A stretch of DNA of 64,000 nucleotides, from positions 4,155,501 through 4,219,500 of the forward strand of contig NZ_AP023368.1 of NCBI RefSeq assembly GCF_014218355.1, written 5' to 3'. This stretch comes from Anaerocolumna chitinilytica. GTDB taxonomy: Bacteria; Bacillota; Clostridia; Lachnospirales; Lachnospiraceae. Below, in pieces: positions 18,635 to 22,966 of the stretch; within the stretch, counting starts at the first letter, position 1; every line of letters begins with the position of its first letter. The translations under genes were made by a program, and so were the position numbers. Under the pieces are notes generated by a model, which saw only the letters and a program-made list of their open reading frames with translations, was not told the DNA's origin and made no database searches.

Positions 18635-18664
18635 TTCACACCATTCGCCAATTTATCATATAAT
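18635..18664 (+). promoter_or_regulatory. Probable sigma-A promoter of the split ABC ATPase gene
   Basis: TTCACA (18635-18640), an 18-bp spacer and TATAAT (18659-18664) lie 27 bp before the ATPase ATG. I see no riboswitch between promoter and gene. Confidence 0.6.
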
Positions 18665-18690
18665 ACAATATAACAAAATCGGAGGAAACT

Positions 18691-19353
18691 ATGGGAAAAT
18701 TACTTAAAATAAACAATGTAGGCTATACCTACCATAGTTTAGACGGAGAAACTTTGGCGTTAAAAGATATCTCTTTTCATGTAAACGACGGTGAGTTTCT
18801 TGCAATTGTCGGACCTAGCGGCTGTGGTAAGTCAACGCTACTTTCATTGATAGCAGGACTGATAACTCCTGATACCGGTGATATTTTAATAGATGGAAAA
18901 GATTTAAAATCATCTGGTAAAAATATTGGGTATATGCTTCAAAAAGATCACCTGCTTGAATGGAGATCAACACAGAAAAATCTTACTCTTGGACTTGAAA
19001 TTCAGAATAAGCTTACAGATAACAGCTATATCTGCATTAATGAAATGCTCTCTACCTATGGTCTTATTACCTTTCGCGATTCAAAGCCCTCTTCCCTGTC
19101 CGGAGGTATGAGACAGCGGGCGGCTCTTATTAGAACTCTTCTGTTAGAACCTGATATTCTTCTCCTTGATGAACCCTTTTCTGCTCTGGATTACCAAACA
19201 CGTATTGAAGTTTCTGATGATATTTGGGGAATAATACGTAATGAACATAAGACGGCTATATTAATTACCCATGACATATCAGAAGCTATGACAACGAAAA
19301 TGCTACAGTTTTTTCGCCATTTTTCACCTTTTTCTGATTTTTTCATATACTAA
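18691..19353 (+). CDS. NitT/TauT-type ABC transporter ATPase, 5' portion interrupted by an integrated element
   Basis: The first 197 codons (to 19281) encode an importer ATPase of the SsuB/TauB/ThiZ class: Walker A GPSGCGKST, Q-loop MLQKDHLLEW, signature LSGGMRQRAALIRTLLL, Walker B ILLLDEPFSALD and H-switch ITHDISEA. From GAAGCT (19282) the frame enters the integrated element and gains 23 unrelated codons ending at 19353, giving 220 residues instead of about 258. All nucleotide-binding motifs lie before the break, so the truncated product lacks only the last ~60 residues. The missing end resumes at 21782 in frame. Ligand class (nitrate, sulfonate or thiamine-precursor-like) cannot be resolved, since no binding-protein gene is next to it. 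GGAGGAAACT precedes the ATG. Confidence 0.9.
   Translation: MGKLLKINNVGYTYHSLDGETLALKDISFHVNDGEFLAIVGPSGCGKSTLLSLIAGLITPDTGDILIDGKDLKSSGKNIGYMLQKDHLLEWRSTQKNLTLGLEIQNKLTDNSYICINEMLSTYGLITFRDSKPSSLSGGMRQRAALIRTLLLEPDILLLDEPFSALDYQTRIEVSDDIWGIIRNEHKTAILITHDISEAMTTKMLQFFRHFSPFSDFFIY
19282..19304 (+). other. attL: left junction of the element
   Basis: The shared core GAAGCT is at 19282-19287. The element-side arm CTATGACAACGAAAATGCT (19286-19304) is an inverted match (16 of 19) to the arm at the right end, 21761-21779. Left of the core is ATPase coding sequence. Confidence 0.8.
19326..19352 (+). promoter_or_regulatory. Sigma-K-like promoter before the repeat-protein gene
   Basis: AC (19326-19327), 16 bp, then CATATACTA (19344-19352) fits the mother-cell sigma-K pattern AC-N16/17-CATANNNTA. 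The ATG is 25 bp further on. The consensus is short and the region AT-rich, so a chance match is quite possible. Confidence 0.35.
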
Positions 19354-19377
19354 TAAAAAAGAAAAGGAGTGAATTAT

Positions 19378-19620
19378 ATGCCCGATAACAAGAATAACAA
19401 AGATGTTGAGCAGACAGGTTGTTCCAACTGCGGCGGTTGGCCGAATTACTGGGGACCTGGACCTTGGGGACCCGGACCTGGACGTGGGCCTTGGGGGCCA
19501 GGGCCTGGACGCGGACCTTGGGGTCCCGGACCCGGACGCGGACCTTGGGGTCCCGGACCTGGACGCGGACCTTGGGGTCCTGGACCCGGACGCGGACCTT
19601 GGGGTCCTGGCCGGTGGTAA
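19378..19620 (+). CDS. Gly/Pro/Trp/Arg repeat protein carried by the element
   Basis: An 80-residue protein. A short polar N-terminus with a CxxC motif (TGCSNCGGW, about residues 13-21) is followed by about five tandem nine-residue repeats of GPGPGRGPW to the C-terminus. AAAAGGAGTG precedes the ATG at 19378, an excellent ribosome site. The repeats are encoded by a 27-bp GC-rich unit, sharply different from the AT-rich surroundings. No catalytic domain is possible. Composition recalls structural coat or exosporium-type proteins, but I do not recognise a family. It lies just inside the left end, behind a sigma-K-like promoter and before a strong terminator, so it appears to be an independent cargo gene. 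Confidence 0.7.
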   Translation: MPDNKNNKDVEQTGCSNCGGWPNYWGPGPWGPGPGRGPWGPGPGRGPWGPGPGRGPWGPGPGRGPWGPGPGRGPWGPGRW

Positions 19621-19711
19621 ATTCAAGTAAAGAAAACTCATATGCTGTTTTAAGGGCAGCAACTGTTTTCCTTAATATGTAATATTCATACTATCAATAA
19701 CTCATTTTTGC

Positions 19712-19748
19712 CTGCCTCATCGGTTTAAAAAACTATGAGGCAGTTTTT
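19712..19748 (+). terminator. Intrinsic terminator inside the element
   Basis: CTGCCTCAT (19712-19720) pairs with ATGAGGCAG (19735-19743), followed by TTTTT. It ends the repeat-protein transcript and would also block read-through from the ATPase promoter towards the permease while the element is integrated. Confidence 0.88.
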
Positions 19749-19769
19749 AATAAACTTTATCTTTGATTT

Positions 19770-19829
19770 GCTTACTGACACTTTGCTTATTGACACTTTC
19801 CTTACTGACACTTTGCTTACTGACACTTT
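19770..19829 (+). repeat. Four tandem 15-bp repeats
   Basis: Units at 19770, 19785, 19800 and 19815 follow (G/C)CTTA(C/T)TGACACTTT. They lie between the terminator and the end of the small minus-strand gene and show no coding logic. They could be binding sites for an element-encoded protein, or simple slippage repeats. Confidence 0.75.
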
Positions 19830-19848
19830 CCTTGCAAGCTTTTCTCGC

Positions 19849-20013
19849 TTAATCTTCATTTATCAATATACTTATTATCCTCTCGTACTCCATCGTTCTA
19901 TCCTCTTCTGCTTTACTCAGGATTACCTGCTTTAGAAGTTCAGCAATAAGCTGATTTCCTATTTTTTCTACAAGCGCTCTGCCATCCTCCGGATTTTTAA
20001 TAATAATCTTCAT
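19849..20013 (-). CDS. 54-residue protein, candidate accessory or directionality factor of the recombinase
   Basis: A minus-strand frame from ATG at 20013 to TAA at 19849-19851. The product starts MKIIIKNPEDGRALVEKIGN and is a charged, mostly helical small protein. It is divergent from the recombinase gene (starts 113 bp apart). The ribosome site is weak (CTGGATAAACG), which lowers confidence, but the amino-acid composition looks like a real protein. Recombination directionality factors of serine integrases are small, highly diverse and usually encoded nearby, so that role is plausible but not shown by any motif. The recombinase-proximal position is the only functional clue. Confidence 0.5.
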   Translation of the reverse strand: MKIIIKNPEDGRALVEKIGNQLIAELLKQVILSKAEEDRTMEYERIISILINED

Positions 20014-20126
20014 ATCGTTTATCCAGCCTGCTTCTATATCACAAACTATTCTTTGCCTTTCTGATTTATGTAAGAATCGTCATGTTCTTCCGCTTTTTAC
20101 CGTATATTAAGCTAGGAGGTGATCCG

Positions 20127-21770
20127 ATGAATATAGCCATATACAGCCGTAAATCCAAGTTCAGTGAAACCGGAGAATCCGTCGAAAATCAAATACAGTA
20201 TTGCAAATCCTATGCCGCCGTACATCTGCGTCCGGCACAGGATATTACCTTCTATATCTATGAGGATGAAGGTTTTTCCGCGGCTACTTCCATGCGTCCT
20301 CAATTTCAGAAATTATTATCAGATATCCGGAATGGAAAGATACAGCTTCTCATGTGTTATCGCCTCGACCGTATTACCAGGAAAGTATCCGACTTCTCAG
20401 AAACCTTAGAGCTTCTTGAAAAAATGAATGTCGGCTTTATCTCTGCCACCGAAAATTTTGACACTTCCACTCCTATGGGAAAGGCTATGATTTATATAGC
20501 CTCTGTATTTGCTCAGCTGGAGCGGGAAACCATTGCAGAGCGCGTTCGCGACAATATGCTTGCCCTGTCAAAGACCGGCAGATGGTTAGGAGGACTTACT
20601 CCCATGGGCTATGTTTCAAAAGAAATTATTTATCTTGATTCTGAATTTCGGGAGCGAAAGTTGTATCAGCTGGTCTCTAAAGAAGAGGAATTACATACCG
20701 TAACGCTGCTTTTTTATAAATATCAGGAACTGGGCAGTCTCTCAGCTGTTGAGAACTATTGCTTTATTCATGGAATAAAAAGCCAAAAGAATTGTTTCTT
20801 TAGCAAAGGCAGTATTGCAAAAATTCTTGAGAATCCTACTTATTGCATTGGAGATCAGGATGCCTATGCGTATTTCTCATCACTTGGCTGCTGCATTACA
20901 TCCTCCGTTTCGGAATTCAATTCAGACAGAGGAATACTGTGCTATAACCGTACAAACCAGCAGACCAAGAACCACCGAAAAAAACGACCTCCCACCGAGT
21001 GGATTATCGCTCTTGGCAAGCATCAGGGTGTTATATCCGGCAGGTTGTTTACAGAAACTCAGGCAAAGCTTAAGAAAAACAAAGAAAAGGCCTCCCCCAG
21101 AAAGGATACCTCCGCCTATTCTATTGTTTCCGGTAAAATACTATGTTTAAAATGCGGTTCTAAAATGCGTATCAAGAATATACGAAAAGAGAATAAAATC
21201 ACCCGCTTTAGTTACGCCTGTGAAAGAAAAACACTTACAAAAGGGGTGAAGTGCAACACTCCTAATATAAATGGAGCTGAATTTGACAAAGCTCTGATCG
21301 AGACTCTGTGGGAATACCTGCAATCTTCCCTTGATTACAACCAGGTAATAAGTCTTTTAAAAGCACAAAATACAGCTCTACTAAAAGCAGATCCAGACAT
21401 TTCAATACAAAAAACTTTGGAAAAGGAAAAGGCCTCTTATCAAAACGAGATAGATCAACTTATAAACCAGTTATCCAGAAATCCCTCCCCGCTATTAGAA
21501 AAGTATCTGCTCCCTAAGCTGTTGGAATTAGATCGAAAGATAAATGATGTAAGTAATCAGCTAACTATGCTGTCAAAGTCTTCTGAAGGATTAACTTGGC
21601 CTGCATCAGTTCCTAACCTTCACCAAAAAAATCCAAATGATTTAGCATACATCATTAAGAACGCAGATATCCAAACCAAGAAGACCTTGGTAAATGCACT
21701 GATTGACTCCATAGAATGGGATGGAAATGCAGCGTATTTAAACTTCCGTACATCAAACGGAGCATTTTAG
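20127..21770 (+). CDS. Large serine recombinase (site-specific integrase)
   Basis: 547 residues from the ATG at 20127, preceded by TAGGAGGTGATCCG; the frame is open 15 codons further upstream without a ribosome site. The resolvase catalytic domain (about 1-150) has the nucleophile Ser10 in AIYSRKS and catalytic arginines in YRLDRITR and ERETIAERVR. A recombinase domain (about 160-290) and a zinc-ribbon (CLKC...C...C, about 350-395) follow, then a coiled coil (about 430-490). This is the full large-serine-recombinase layout, and all key residues seem present. It lies against the right end of its element, and its stop codon is inside the right attachment arm, as is usual for integrases. It probably catalyses excision and integration at the GAAGCT core. 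Confidence 0.95.
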   Translation: MNIAIYSRKSKFSETGESVENQIQYCKSYAAVHLRPAQDITFYIYEDEGFSAATSMRPQFQKLLSDIRNGKIQLLMCYRLDRITRKVSDFSETLELLEKMNVGFISATENFDTSTPMGKAMIYIASVFAQLERETIAERVRDNMLALSKTGRWLGGLTPMGYVSKEIIYLDSEFRERKLYQLVSKEEELHTVTLLFYKYQELGSLSAVENYCFIHGIKSQKNCFFSKGSIAKILENPTYCIGDQDAYAYFSSLGCCITSSVSEFNSDRGILCYNRTNQQTKNHRKKRPPTEWIIALGKHQGVISGRLFTETQAKLKKNKEKASPRKDTSAYSIVSGKILCLKCGSKMRIKNIRKENKITRFSYACERKTLTKGVKCNTPNINGAEFDKALIETLWEYLQSSLDYNQVISLLKAQNTALLKADPDISIQKTLEKEKASYQNEIDQLINQLSRNPSPLLEKYLLPKLLELDRKINDVSNQLTMLSKSSEGLTWPASVPNLHQKNPNDLAYIIKNADIQTKKTLVNALIDSIEWDGNAAYLNFRTSNGAF

Positions 21771-21787
21771 TATTCATAGGTGAAGCT
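21761..21787 (+). other. attR: right junction of the element
   Basis: The element-side arm AGCATTTTAGTATTCATAG (21761-21779) overlaps the recombinase stop codon, then GT and the shared core GAAGCT (21782-21787), after which ATPase coding sequence resumes. With the attL arm it forms a symmetric 44-bp attP around the dinucleotide GA. Confidence 0.8.
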
Positions 21788-21967
21788 GTCTCTATGGCTG
21801 ACCGTATTATCGTTCTAAGCAGCCGGCCGGGCACTATCAAATGCGAGATAGATGTAAATCTATCCCTGGATGAACGTACCCCTTTCAAAGCCAGAAGTGC
21901 TCCGGAATTCAAAGATTATTTTAATCTAATCTGGAAGGAGTTAAGCCATGGCAAAGTCAACAGCTAA
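21782..21967 (+). pseudogene. 3' portion of the split NitT/TauT-type ABC ATPase gene
   Basis: 61 codons plus stop continue the ATPase in frame after the element: EAVSMADRIIVLSSRPGTIK..., a sequence that normally directly follows the H-switch in this family. It holds the C-terminal ~60 residues, which stabilise the subunit and contact the permease. On its own it has no convincing start, although an ATG at 21795 follows GGTGAAG. Its end overlaps the permease start by 20 bp, indicating that ATPase and permease were translationally coupled before insertion. Confidence 0.88.
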
Positions 21968-22754
21968 CACCAATTACTCCCCTGCCCACCAGGTTTATTT
22001 AAAAAATTATTATAAAAAGAAATGCTTCATACGAATCATGCAGTTTGTCATAATTATAAGCTTTCTGGCTTTATGGGAAGTTTCTACCCGCATTGGCTTG
22101 GTAGACTCCTTTATATTCAGCAGTCCCTCCAGGGTGGCAGGGACTTTTCTTGATATGGCAGCTGATGGCAGTATCTTTTATCATACTGGTATTACTTTGC
22201 TTGAAACTTTTGTCAGCTTTGCCATTGTAAATATTTTTGGTATAGCTATGGCTGTACTGCTTTGGTGGAATGAAAAACTTGCCAAAGTCCTGGAGCCTTA
22301 TCTGGTAGTATTAAACAGTCTTCCAAAATCCGCTCTGGCTCCGGTTTTTATTGTATGGCTTGGAAATAATGTCAAGACTATCATCGTTGCAGCCGTTTCT
22401 GTCGCAGTATTTAGTACTGTTATCACCCTTCATACCAATTTCAGCAATACAGAGGAAGATAAAAAGAAGCTTATACTAACACTGGGAGGCGGCAAAAAAG
22501 ATATCCTTCTTAAAGTCGTAATTCCAGGGAATATTCCGCAAATCATCAGCATTATGAAGGTTAATATCGGCTTATCCTTGGTCGGAGTTATTATCGGAGA
22601 ATTCCTTGCGGCAAAAGCCGGACTGGGTTATCTGATTATCTATGGCAGTCAGGTGTTTAAACTTGATTATGTCATTATGTCAATCGTTATTCTATGTATT
22701 CTGGCTACTTTTCTATATCAGCTGCTCACTTATTTTGAAAAGAAGTACAAATAG
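21948..22754 (+). CDS. NitT/TauT-type ABC transporter permease
   Basis: A 268-residue inner-membrane protein with about six helices and the binding-protein-dependent EAA motif around TLGGGKKDILLKVVIPGN, which contacts the ATPase. The class is that of SsuC, TauC and ThiX. GGAAGGAGTTAAGCC precedes the ATG. Its start overlaps the 3' fragment of the split ATPase gene, so the two were one operon; with the element in place it lies behind an internal terminator and may be poorly expressed. No periplasmic-type binding protein is encoded here. The riboflavin operon follows but has its own promoter, so a link to flavin precursors is speculation. Confidence 0.9.
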   Translation: MAKSTANTNYSPAHQVYLKNYYKKKCFIRIMQFVIIISFLALWEVSTRIGLVDSFIFSSPSRVAGTFLDMAADGSIFYHTGITLLETFVSFAIVNIFGIAMAVLLWWNEKLAKVLEPYLVVLNSLPKSALAPVFIVWLGNNVKTIIVAAVSVAVFSTVITLHTNFSNTEEDKKKLILTLGGGKKDILLKVVIPGNIPQIISIMKVNIGLSLVGVIIGEFLAAKAGLGYLIIYGSQVFKLDYVIMSIVILCILATFLYQLLTYFEKKYK

Positions 22755-22775: not shown

Positions 22776-22804
22776 TTGACATTCTTTATTCCTGCTGTTA
22801 TAAT
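22776..22804 (+). promoter_or_regulatory. ribD: Perfect sigma-A promoter of the riboflavin operon
   Basis: TTGACA (22776-22781), a 17-bp spacer and TATAAT (22799-22804) are exact consensus and lie immediately before the FMN riboswitch. Confidence 0.88.
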
Positions 22805-22822
22805 GAACGCAATTGAATATAC

Positions 22823-22929
22823 ATCTTCAGGGCAGGGTGCAATTCCCTACCGGTGGTATAGCCCACAAACCGTAAGGTACGATTCGGTGAAACTCCGAAG
22901 CCGACAGTAAAGTCTGGATGGAAGAAGAT
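22823..22929 (+). promoter_or_regulatory. FMN riboswitch (RFN element)
   Basis: The conserved RFN blocks are in order: ATCTTCAGGGCAGGGTG, CCCTACCGGTGG, AGCCCACAAACCG, GATTCGGTGAAACTCCGA, GCCGACAGT, AGTCTGGATG and GAAGAAGAT. The outer stem pairs 22823-22828 with 22924-22929. FMN binding should promote termination at the hairpin downstream and so switch off rib synthesis when flavin is plentiful. Confidence 0.97.
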
Positions 22930-22966
22930 TTTATAAAAGCTGCAATTAGCATTCTTTTGTATAATT

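Follow-up and report, generated by a model that had tools for sequence, protein, structure and literature searches.

A very small skin-like intervening element in the transporter gene ytlC of Anaerocolumna, probably excised in the mother cell

In Anaerocolumna chitinilytica a gene for an ABC transporter ATPase is cut in two by a short element that encodes its own recombinase. Is the gene dead, is it a chance docking site for a mobile element, or is it put back together when the cell needs it? We analysed a 64-kb window, inside one 5.62-Mb contig, whose numbering is used throughout. The ATPase frame that starts at 18691 breaks after codon 197 and picks up again at 21782, with GAAGCT present at both edges of the element (19282-19287 and 21782-21787). 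When 19282-21781 are deleted, a single 258-codon frame results, reading HDISEAVSMADRI across the joint. The breakpoints, the repeat and the 258-codon join had been given in a first-pass annotation of this DNA, and all proved exact. The locus contains the following features.

18640..18665, + strand: sigma-K-like block before ytlC, ACC-N14-CATATAATA, kept in 14 of the 14 genus genomes that have the gene
18691..19281, + strand: first 197 codons of ytlC (5′ part), spanning Walker A to the switch H-loop, with an omega of 0.024 across 8 carriers
19260..19305, + strand: attL (approximate), with its core GAAGCT at 19282-19287 and crossover presumed at the dinucleotide GA, 19282-19283
19282..21781, + strand: intervening element of 2,500 bp, identically placed in nine of the 15 genus genomes
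19326..19352, + strand: a further sigma-K-like block, ACC-N15-CATATACTA, which lies within the element and aligns across all nine elements
19378..19620, + strand: gene for a Gly/Pro/Trp-rich peptide of 80 aa, coat-protein-like by composition only, with a comparable gene in 9 of 9 elements
19849..20013, - strand: gene for a 54-aa protein, candidate recombination directionality factor, with a homologue at the same place in 9 of 9 elements
20127..21770, + strand: gene for a large serine integrase of 547 aa, with Resolvase, Recombinase and Zn_ribbon_recom domains, phrog_95 integrase, omega 0.08 in 9 elements
21757..21805, + strand: attR (approximate), core GAAGCT 21782-21787
21782..21967, + strand: remaining 61 codons of ytlC (3′ part) with the stop, a conserved open frame in all 8 carriers read, omega 0.074
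21948..22754, + strand: ytlD permease gene, overlapping the end of ytlC, BPD_transp_1, downstream of ytlC in relatives

The names of matched records, together with the permease directly downstream, identify the split ATPase as ytlC of a NitT/TauT-type ytlCD pair. Matches to the intact gene are named ytlC in NCBI records P0001, P0002, P0004, P0013 and P0068, and CmpD in P0012. In B. subtilis, ytlA, ytlC and ytlD are placed under sigma-K in published tables (PMC3416734), as is ytlC (CD1927) of C. difficile (PMC3789822), and the function of YtlACD is given as unknown (PMC11466899). The main text of a B. subtilis study of mother-cell transcription (PMC517825) names no ytl gene. We treat ytlC as a putative mother-cell gene on its name, on published sigma-K regulation in other species and on its conserved promoter block. 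The sigK gene of this genome, the best match over a curated cut-off that 0 of 14 control genomes passed, is a single open frame. No binding-protein gene was recognised beside ytlCD in the Anaerocolumna ORF lists that were looked at; in one more distant genome (G468) a lipoprotein gene lies directly upstream of ytlCD and might be a candidate for this role.

Sigma-K-like blocks were called with motif letters that we take to be those of this sigma factor. Across the genus the block before ytlC consists of ACC, a gap of 14-16 bp and CATATAATA, with the variant CATATATTA in G009. The block inside the element lies upstream of the Gly/Pro/Trp-rich peptide gene and is imperfect in G009 (CATATAATG). 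The strict form occurs twice in the window against 0.2 expected, and the two sites are those before ytlC and before the peptide gene; the loose pattern is not enriched (9 found, 6.75 expected). The block before ytlC also scores 11/12 as a sigma-70-type site, so that sequence does not settle which sigma factor acts there. The published gap between the -35 and -10 regions of sigma-K promoters is 14-16 nt (PMC517825, in part). Alignment of the elements revealed no common promoter of mother-cell type before the 54-aa gene or the integrase, and -10-like matches there appear in some alignment rows only.

The first-pass annotation had proposed that integration puts a terminator ahead of the permease gene. 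This claim is weak, as the terminator-like matches on the + strand inside the element are short: 8 pairs at 19643-19661 and at 20482-20502, 5 at 19940-19954 and 6 at 21744-21762. The whole 4.5-kb stretch holds 9 such matches against a shuffle mean of 3.7. Directly 3′ of ytlD, at 22776-22933, a perfect (12/12) sigma-70-type promoter match and an FMN riboswitch precede riboflavin genes; with these signals of its own, that operon is separately controlled.

The element carries both its own site-specific recombinase and att sites. Joining its ends gives a near-palindrome in which 16/20 arm positions pair around a GA centre; none of 5,000 shuffles of the arms scored as high, and GA outscored the other centres tried. 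The earlier proposal of a near-palindromic attP of the large serine integrase type, centred on GA, therefore holds. In three carriers (G012, G014 and G011) drift of the left core to GATGCA leaves GA as the sole contiguous core common to both ends, which supports GA as the centre. The reconstructed attP is symmetric in all nine carriers, with 12-17 symmetric positions out of 22 where shuffles average 5.8-7.0, and is weakest in the same three genomes.

Three likely genes were confirmed, in agreement with the small serine-recombinase element first described. The integrase has Resolvase, Recombinase and zinc-ribbon domains in a single protein, as expected of a large serine recombinase. The Gly/Pro/Trp-rich peptide matched no family in family searches, and in G006 its reading frame loses the repeat pattern part-way. 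The small reverse-strand protein is 54-69 aa long across the nine elements; the 54-aa form matched no known family, known factor or PDB chain in family and PDB searches, and a query with the G008 protein found matches solely in elements, in 5 of 15 genomes. Family searches placed no phage structural, lysis or transfer gene in the 2.5 kb. Identity as a prophage was considered and set aside, none of the three likely genes matching a structural family, and a phage origin was not visible in these searches. A scan of IMG/VR with an alignment of the integrase returned two relatives, at 40% and 25%.

Related integrases adjoin a piece of a split sigK (at least 45% identity) in at least 8 of the 34 loci examined, and these loci look like skin elements; this count is a lower bound because many of the loci cover only 1.5 kb of flank. 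One such integrase lies beside the 3′ part of sigK in G002, a genus member with intact ytlC, probably as part of a skin element (L023 1489-3556). In Anaerophilus nitritogenes (L088 4150-9989) a tandem pair of related integrases separates the two parts of sigK. The analogy to skin in sigK drawn at first pass is thus supported, both by these loci and by the reported sigma-K regulation of ytlC.

We consider it likely that the element is a minimal, skin-like sporulation-gene-intervening element that is excised from ytlC in the mother cell. In growing cells and in the spore line the element would stay in ytlC and no working YtlC would be made. During sporulation the mother cell would turn on ytlC, and a small factor would redirect the integrase. 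This factor is probably the 54-aa protein, by analogy to C. difficile skin, where the integrase is produced at all stages and its factor, CD1234, in the mother cell only (PMC5025042, in part). Recombination of attL with attR at GA would then rejoin ytlC, to be read on into ytlD. The 2.5-kb circle, retaining the peptide gene and its promoter block, would be lost with the mother cell, while the spore copy would keep the element. We infer excision in cells, its timing, the directionality factor and the substrate of the transporter. Weighed against this reading were the absence of excised DNA from the sequences examined, the lack of a common mother-cell promoter before the 54-aa gene or the integrase, the lack of a match between the 54-aa protein and a known factor, the lack of enrichment of the loose sigma-K pattern, the sigma-70-type score of the ytlC block, the absence of ytl genes from the main text of PMC517825 and a gap in the 3′ part of ytlC in G011, where 23 codons are missing in frame.

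The annotation had suggested an on/off switch, developmental or stochastic; the developmental form is the one favoured here. A stochastic switch, in which excision and reinsertion would flip YtlC in growing cells and so diversify the population, is permitted by the geometry of the element, and in C. botulinum the yin circle and the restored gene were found at all time points (PMC10747680, in part). We nevertheless regard it as improbable: the host gene is reported to depend on sigma-K, related integrases occur in sigK, and excision by large serine integrases usually depends on a factor (PMC5025042, in part).

The distribution of the element bears on whether it is simply mobile. The gene is cut at this codon, with a recombinase next to it, in nine of the 15 genus genomes (G000, G004, G006, G008, G009, G010, G011, G012 and G014); an insertion at the same codon in nine species is not chance. 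The first-pass annotation had named the lack of any relative with an uninterrupted gene as one sign of a fixed relic, but ytlC is whole in five genomes (G002, G003, G005, G007 and G013). The remaining genome, G001, is 63% complete and gave no ytlC match. Element length is 2,500-2,719 bp in eight carriers, the ninth, G011, being spread over two contigs, and the halves of ytlC are in register in 8/8 continuous carriers, so that removal restores the frame exactly. All nine elements have the same three kinds of gene (Gly/Pro/Trp-rich peptide, reverse-strand small protein and large serine integrase), and the other eight integrases are 51-61% identical to that of the window. In G011 the contigs break exactly at the attL core (end of L065, start of L064). 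Such a break could arise where excised and integrated DNA are mixed; this genome is a MAG, and an assembly error is also possible.

On the host tree the presence of the element needs two changes, and a single change sufficed in 0 of 200 bootstrap trees. The intact G007 stands amid carriers, with support of 94/93 and 89/88 (not starred), and has no scar; the simplest reading is therefore one gain and one clean loss. Most supported groupings in the integrase trees agree with the host tree. The exception is G009, which groups with G010, G008 and G006 at 86 (unstarred) in the quick integrase tree and with the G000 group at 98/95 in the host tree. The best reading is that the Anaerocolumna element is minimal and vertically inherited.

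Outside the genus, other elements interrupt ytlC at this codon in two Vallitalea MAGs (about 4.0 and 4.4 kb), G060 (about 20 kb), G468 (about 3.5 kb) and G579 (about 2.6 kb). The integrases of these five are 34-42% identical to that of the window, and each element has a shared core and 14-19/22 symmetric positions centred on GA. The gene is also interrupted at a second site, the codons of Walker A, in G041, G370 and G352 (6.5, 5.6 and 6.0 kb; core GGTAA), in G035, where the gene spans two contigs and the core is less clear, and in G397, of which the 3′ side only is present. At Walker A the attP is modestly symmetric, with 15, 13 and 12 of 22 positions when the best among several centres is taken, without a shuffle control. 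The other elements in ytlC likewise give in-frame joins. As to cargo, the Vallitalea elements (L091 5201-7918, L087 4732-6142) carry signal peptidase-like and Asp/Glu racemase-like genes (Pfam for L091 only), with an HTH regulator in addition in L091. The cargo of two Walker A elements (L099 3366-8591, L078 7656-12857), which includes a PfkB kinase and a serine-dehydratase-alpha-like protein, looks metabolic (Pfam for L099 only). On a contig labelled as provirus in IMG/VR (IMGVR_UViG_3300010278_000408; L144 6001-6132), ytlC stops at the Walker A core GGTAA, and two proteins beside it matched no Pfam family.

Among 98 relatives the ATPase was matched at 1e-70 in 57, and 11 of these matches are partial at one of the two sites. 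The 392 genomes of the order gave at least 5 splits among the 150 matches listed, and 66 of 196 genomes of the class had a match, 4 of them ending at the H-loop, including the unsettled G612; the three samples overlap. In G612 (L152 17461) the N part ends at the H-loop codon and no C part lies within 19.5 kb, which points to a larger element or a truncated gene. G612 was not counted as a split, nor were G493, where the match starts at residue 30, and G065 and G458, where it meets contig edges. The permease gene is also interrupted: among the 57 of 98 genomes with a permease match, a different serine-recombinase element splits ytlD in G006, G008 and G010; the core is GGTAG in the first two, and the join is shifted in the third. 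Matches in two adjacent pieces (G050) or at contig edges (G032 and G049) were not counted. These three genomes have both ytlD and ytlC split (L067, L068 and L069 for G008, G006 and G010, respectively), and the ytlD element of G010 also encodes a LysM plus GH18 protein. By comparison of all these loci, similar splits of ytlC have arisen several times across clostridia.

An ordinary mobile element that uses ytlC merely as its attB, with no developmental role, would account for some of these data. Several different elements and the IMG/VR contig stop the gene at two conserved motifs, as expected for integrases with a conserved attB. A quick tree places the four Walker A integrases together in a starred group and does not unite the twelve H-loop integrases, which suggests repeated capture. 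Within Anaerocolumna, however, two changes suffice on the host tree and most supported integrase groupings match it (G009 excepted), and the 2.5-kb element has no phage structural or transfer gene. We judge this explanation very improbable for the element of the window.

Selection on the two halves of ytlC shows whether the gene is still used. In eight carriers (G011 excluded) the 3′ part evolves at an omega of 0.074 (2ΔlnL 176 against omega 1), compared with 0.063 in five intact relatives. The value for the 5′ part is 0.024 in carriers and 0.013 in intact relatives, and that for the integrase is 0.08. Decay of the detached 3′ part would be expected had the element never left; its strong purifying selection therefore indicates that an uninterrupted gene must at some stage be formed. 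P0040, a database protein of 258 aa encoded on a 66-kb contig, agrees at 258/258 residues with the join predicted for G012 (Clostridium sp. KNHs205), whose own assembly has ytlC split. It was alone, among the 140 database proteins listed, in reaching at least 95% identity to any carrier's join, and may come from either an excised copy or an element-free strain. A fixed relic, that is an old immobile insertion with ytlC dead in carriers or its truncated protein put to other use, would fit the integrated form seen in all eight carriers with continuous assemblies and the missing codons of G011, but is strongly disfavoured and was rejected on the low omega of the 3′ part and the integrase, the absence of stops in 8/8 carriers read, the att symmetry kept across carriers, the scarless G007 and the identity of P0040 to the G012 join.

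Excision from ytlC in the mother cell is thus the reading that we retain: this very small element, in a sporulation transporter gene of soil bacteria, is probably passed on vertically and excised in the mother cell. With it, a transporter operon would be added to the few sporulation genes known to be interrupted by excisable DNA. The element has a mere 2.5 kb and is kept in nine species, and the single operon is open to repeated and even double capture (ytlC and ytlD). The prediction that YtlCD is wanted in the mother cell only makes a sigma-K transporter of unknown substrate testable, and the size of the module suits it to study as a compact set of integrase, factor and att sites. More tentatively, ytlCD as a whole could be a general clostridial sporulation gate gene repeatedly brought under DNA-level control, related integrases having captured ytlC at Walker A and at the H-loop and another kind of recombinase ytlD, and the Anaerocolumna element could be a domesticated module of three genes, the first of which, under a sigma-K-like promoter of its own, would serve the spore coat. 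If so, some cells would need two excisions for one transporter, and the locus would give the coat peptide before and after excision and the transporter after it only.

Almost all elements of this type are reported to lie in mother-cell genes, with spoVFB, spoVR, gerE, sigK and spsM named (PMC6957869), to which yabG has been added (PMC10747680); ytlC is in neither list as far as the available parts of these papers extend. We found no report of a split ytlC in the literature searched, most subscription papers and bioRxiv being outside its scope. The element resembles skin (SpoIVCA in B. subtilis, CD1231 and CD1234 in C. difficile) in its large serine integrase, its putative mother-cell host gene and the restoration of the frame, and its candidate factor is 54 aa long against 53 for CD1234 (PMC10747680, in part). 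Unlike skin, it sits in a transporter ATPase gene and not in a sigma factor gene, and it has 2.5 kb and three genes, with excision presumed. It shares with gin in gerE of B. cereus ATCC10987 a serine recombinase, a split sporulation gene and a lack of phage genes, but gin is 28.6 kb long, with 31 genes and three recombinases, and its excision has been demonstrated (PMC5595907, in part). Like vfbin (spoVFB), SPbeta (spsM) and yin (yabG), which are excisable, it interrupts a sporulation gene; those three are described as prophages or prophage-like, unlike the ytlC element (PMC6957869 and PMC10747680, both in part). Yin is reported from one strain only (PMC10747680, in part), whereas the ytlC element is present in nine species. 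Its host genes resemble B. subtilis YtlACD in the gene name given by NCBI records and in the pairing of an ATPase with a permease.
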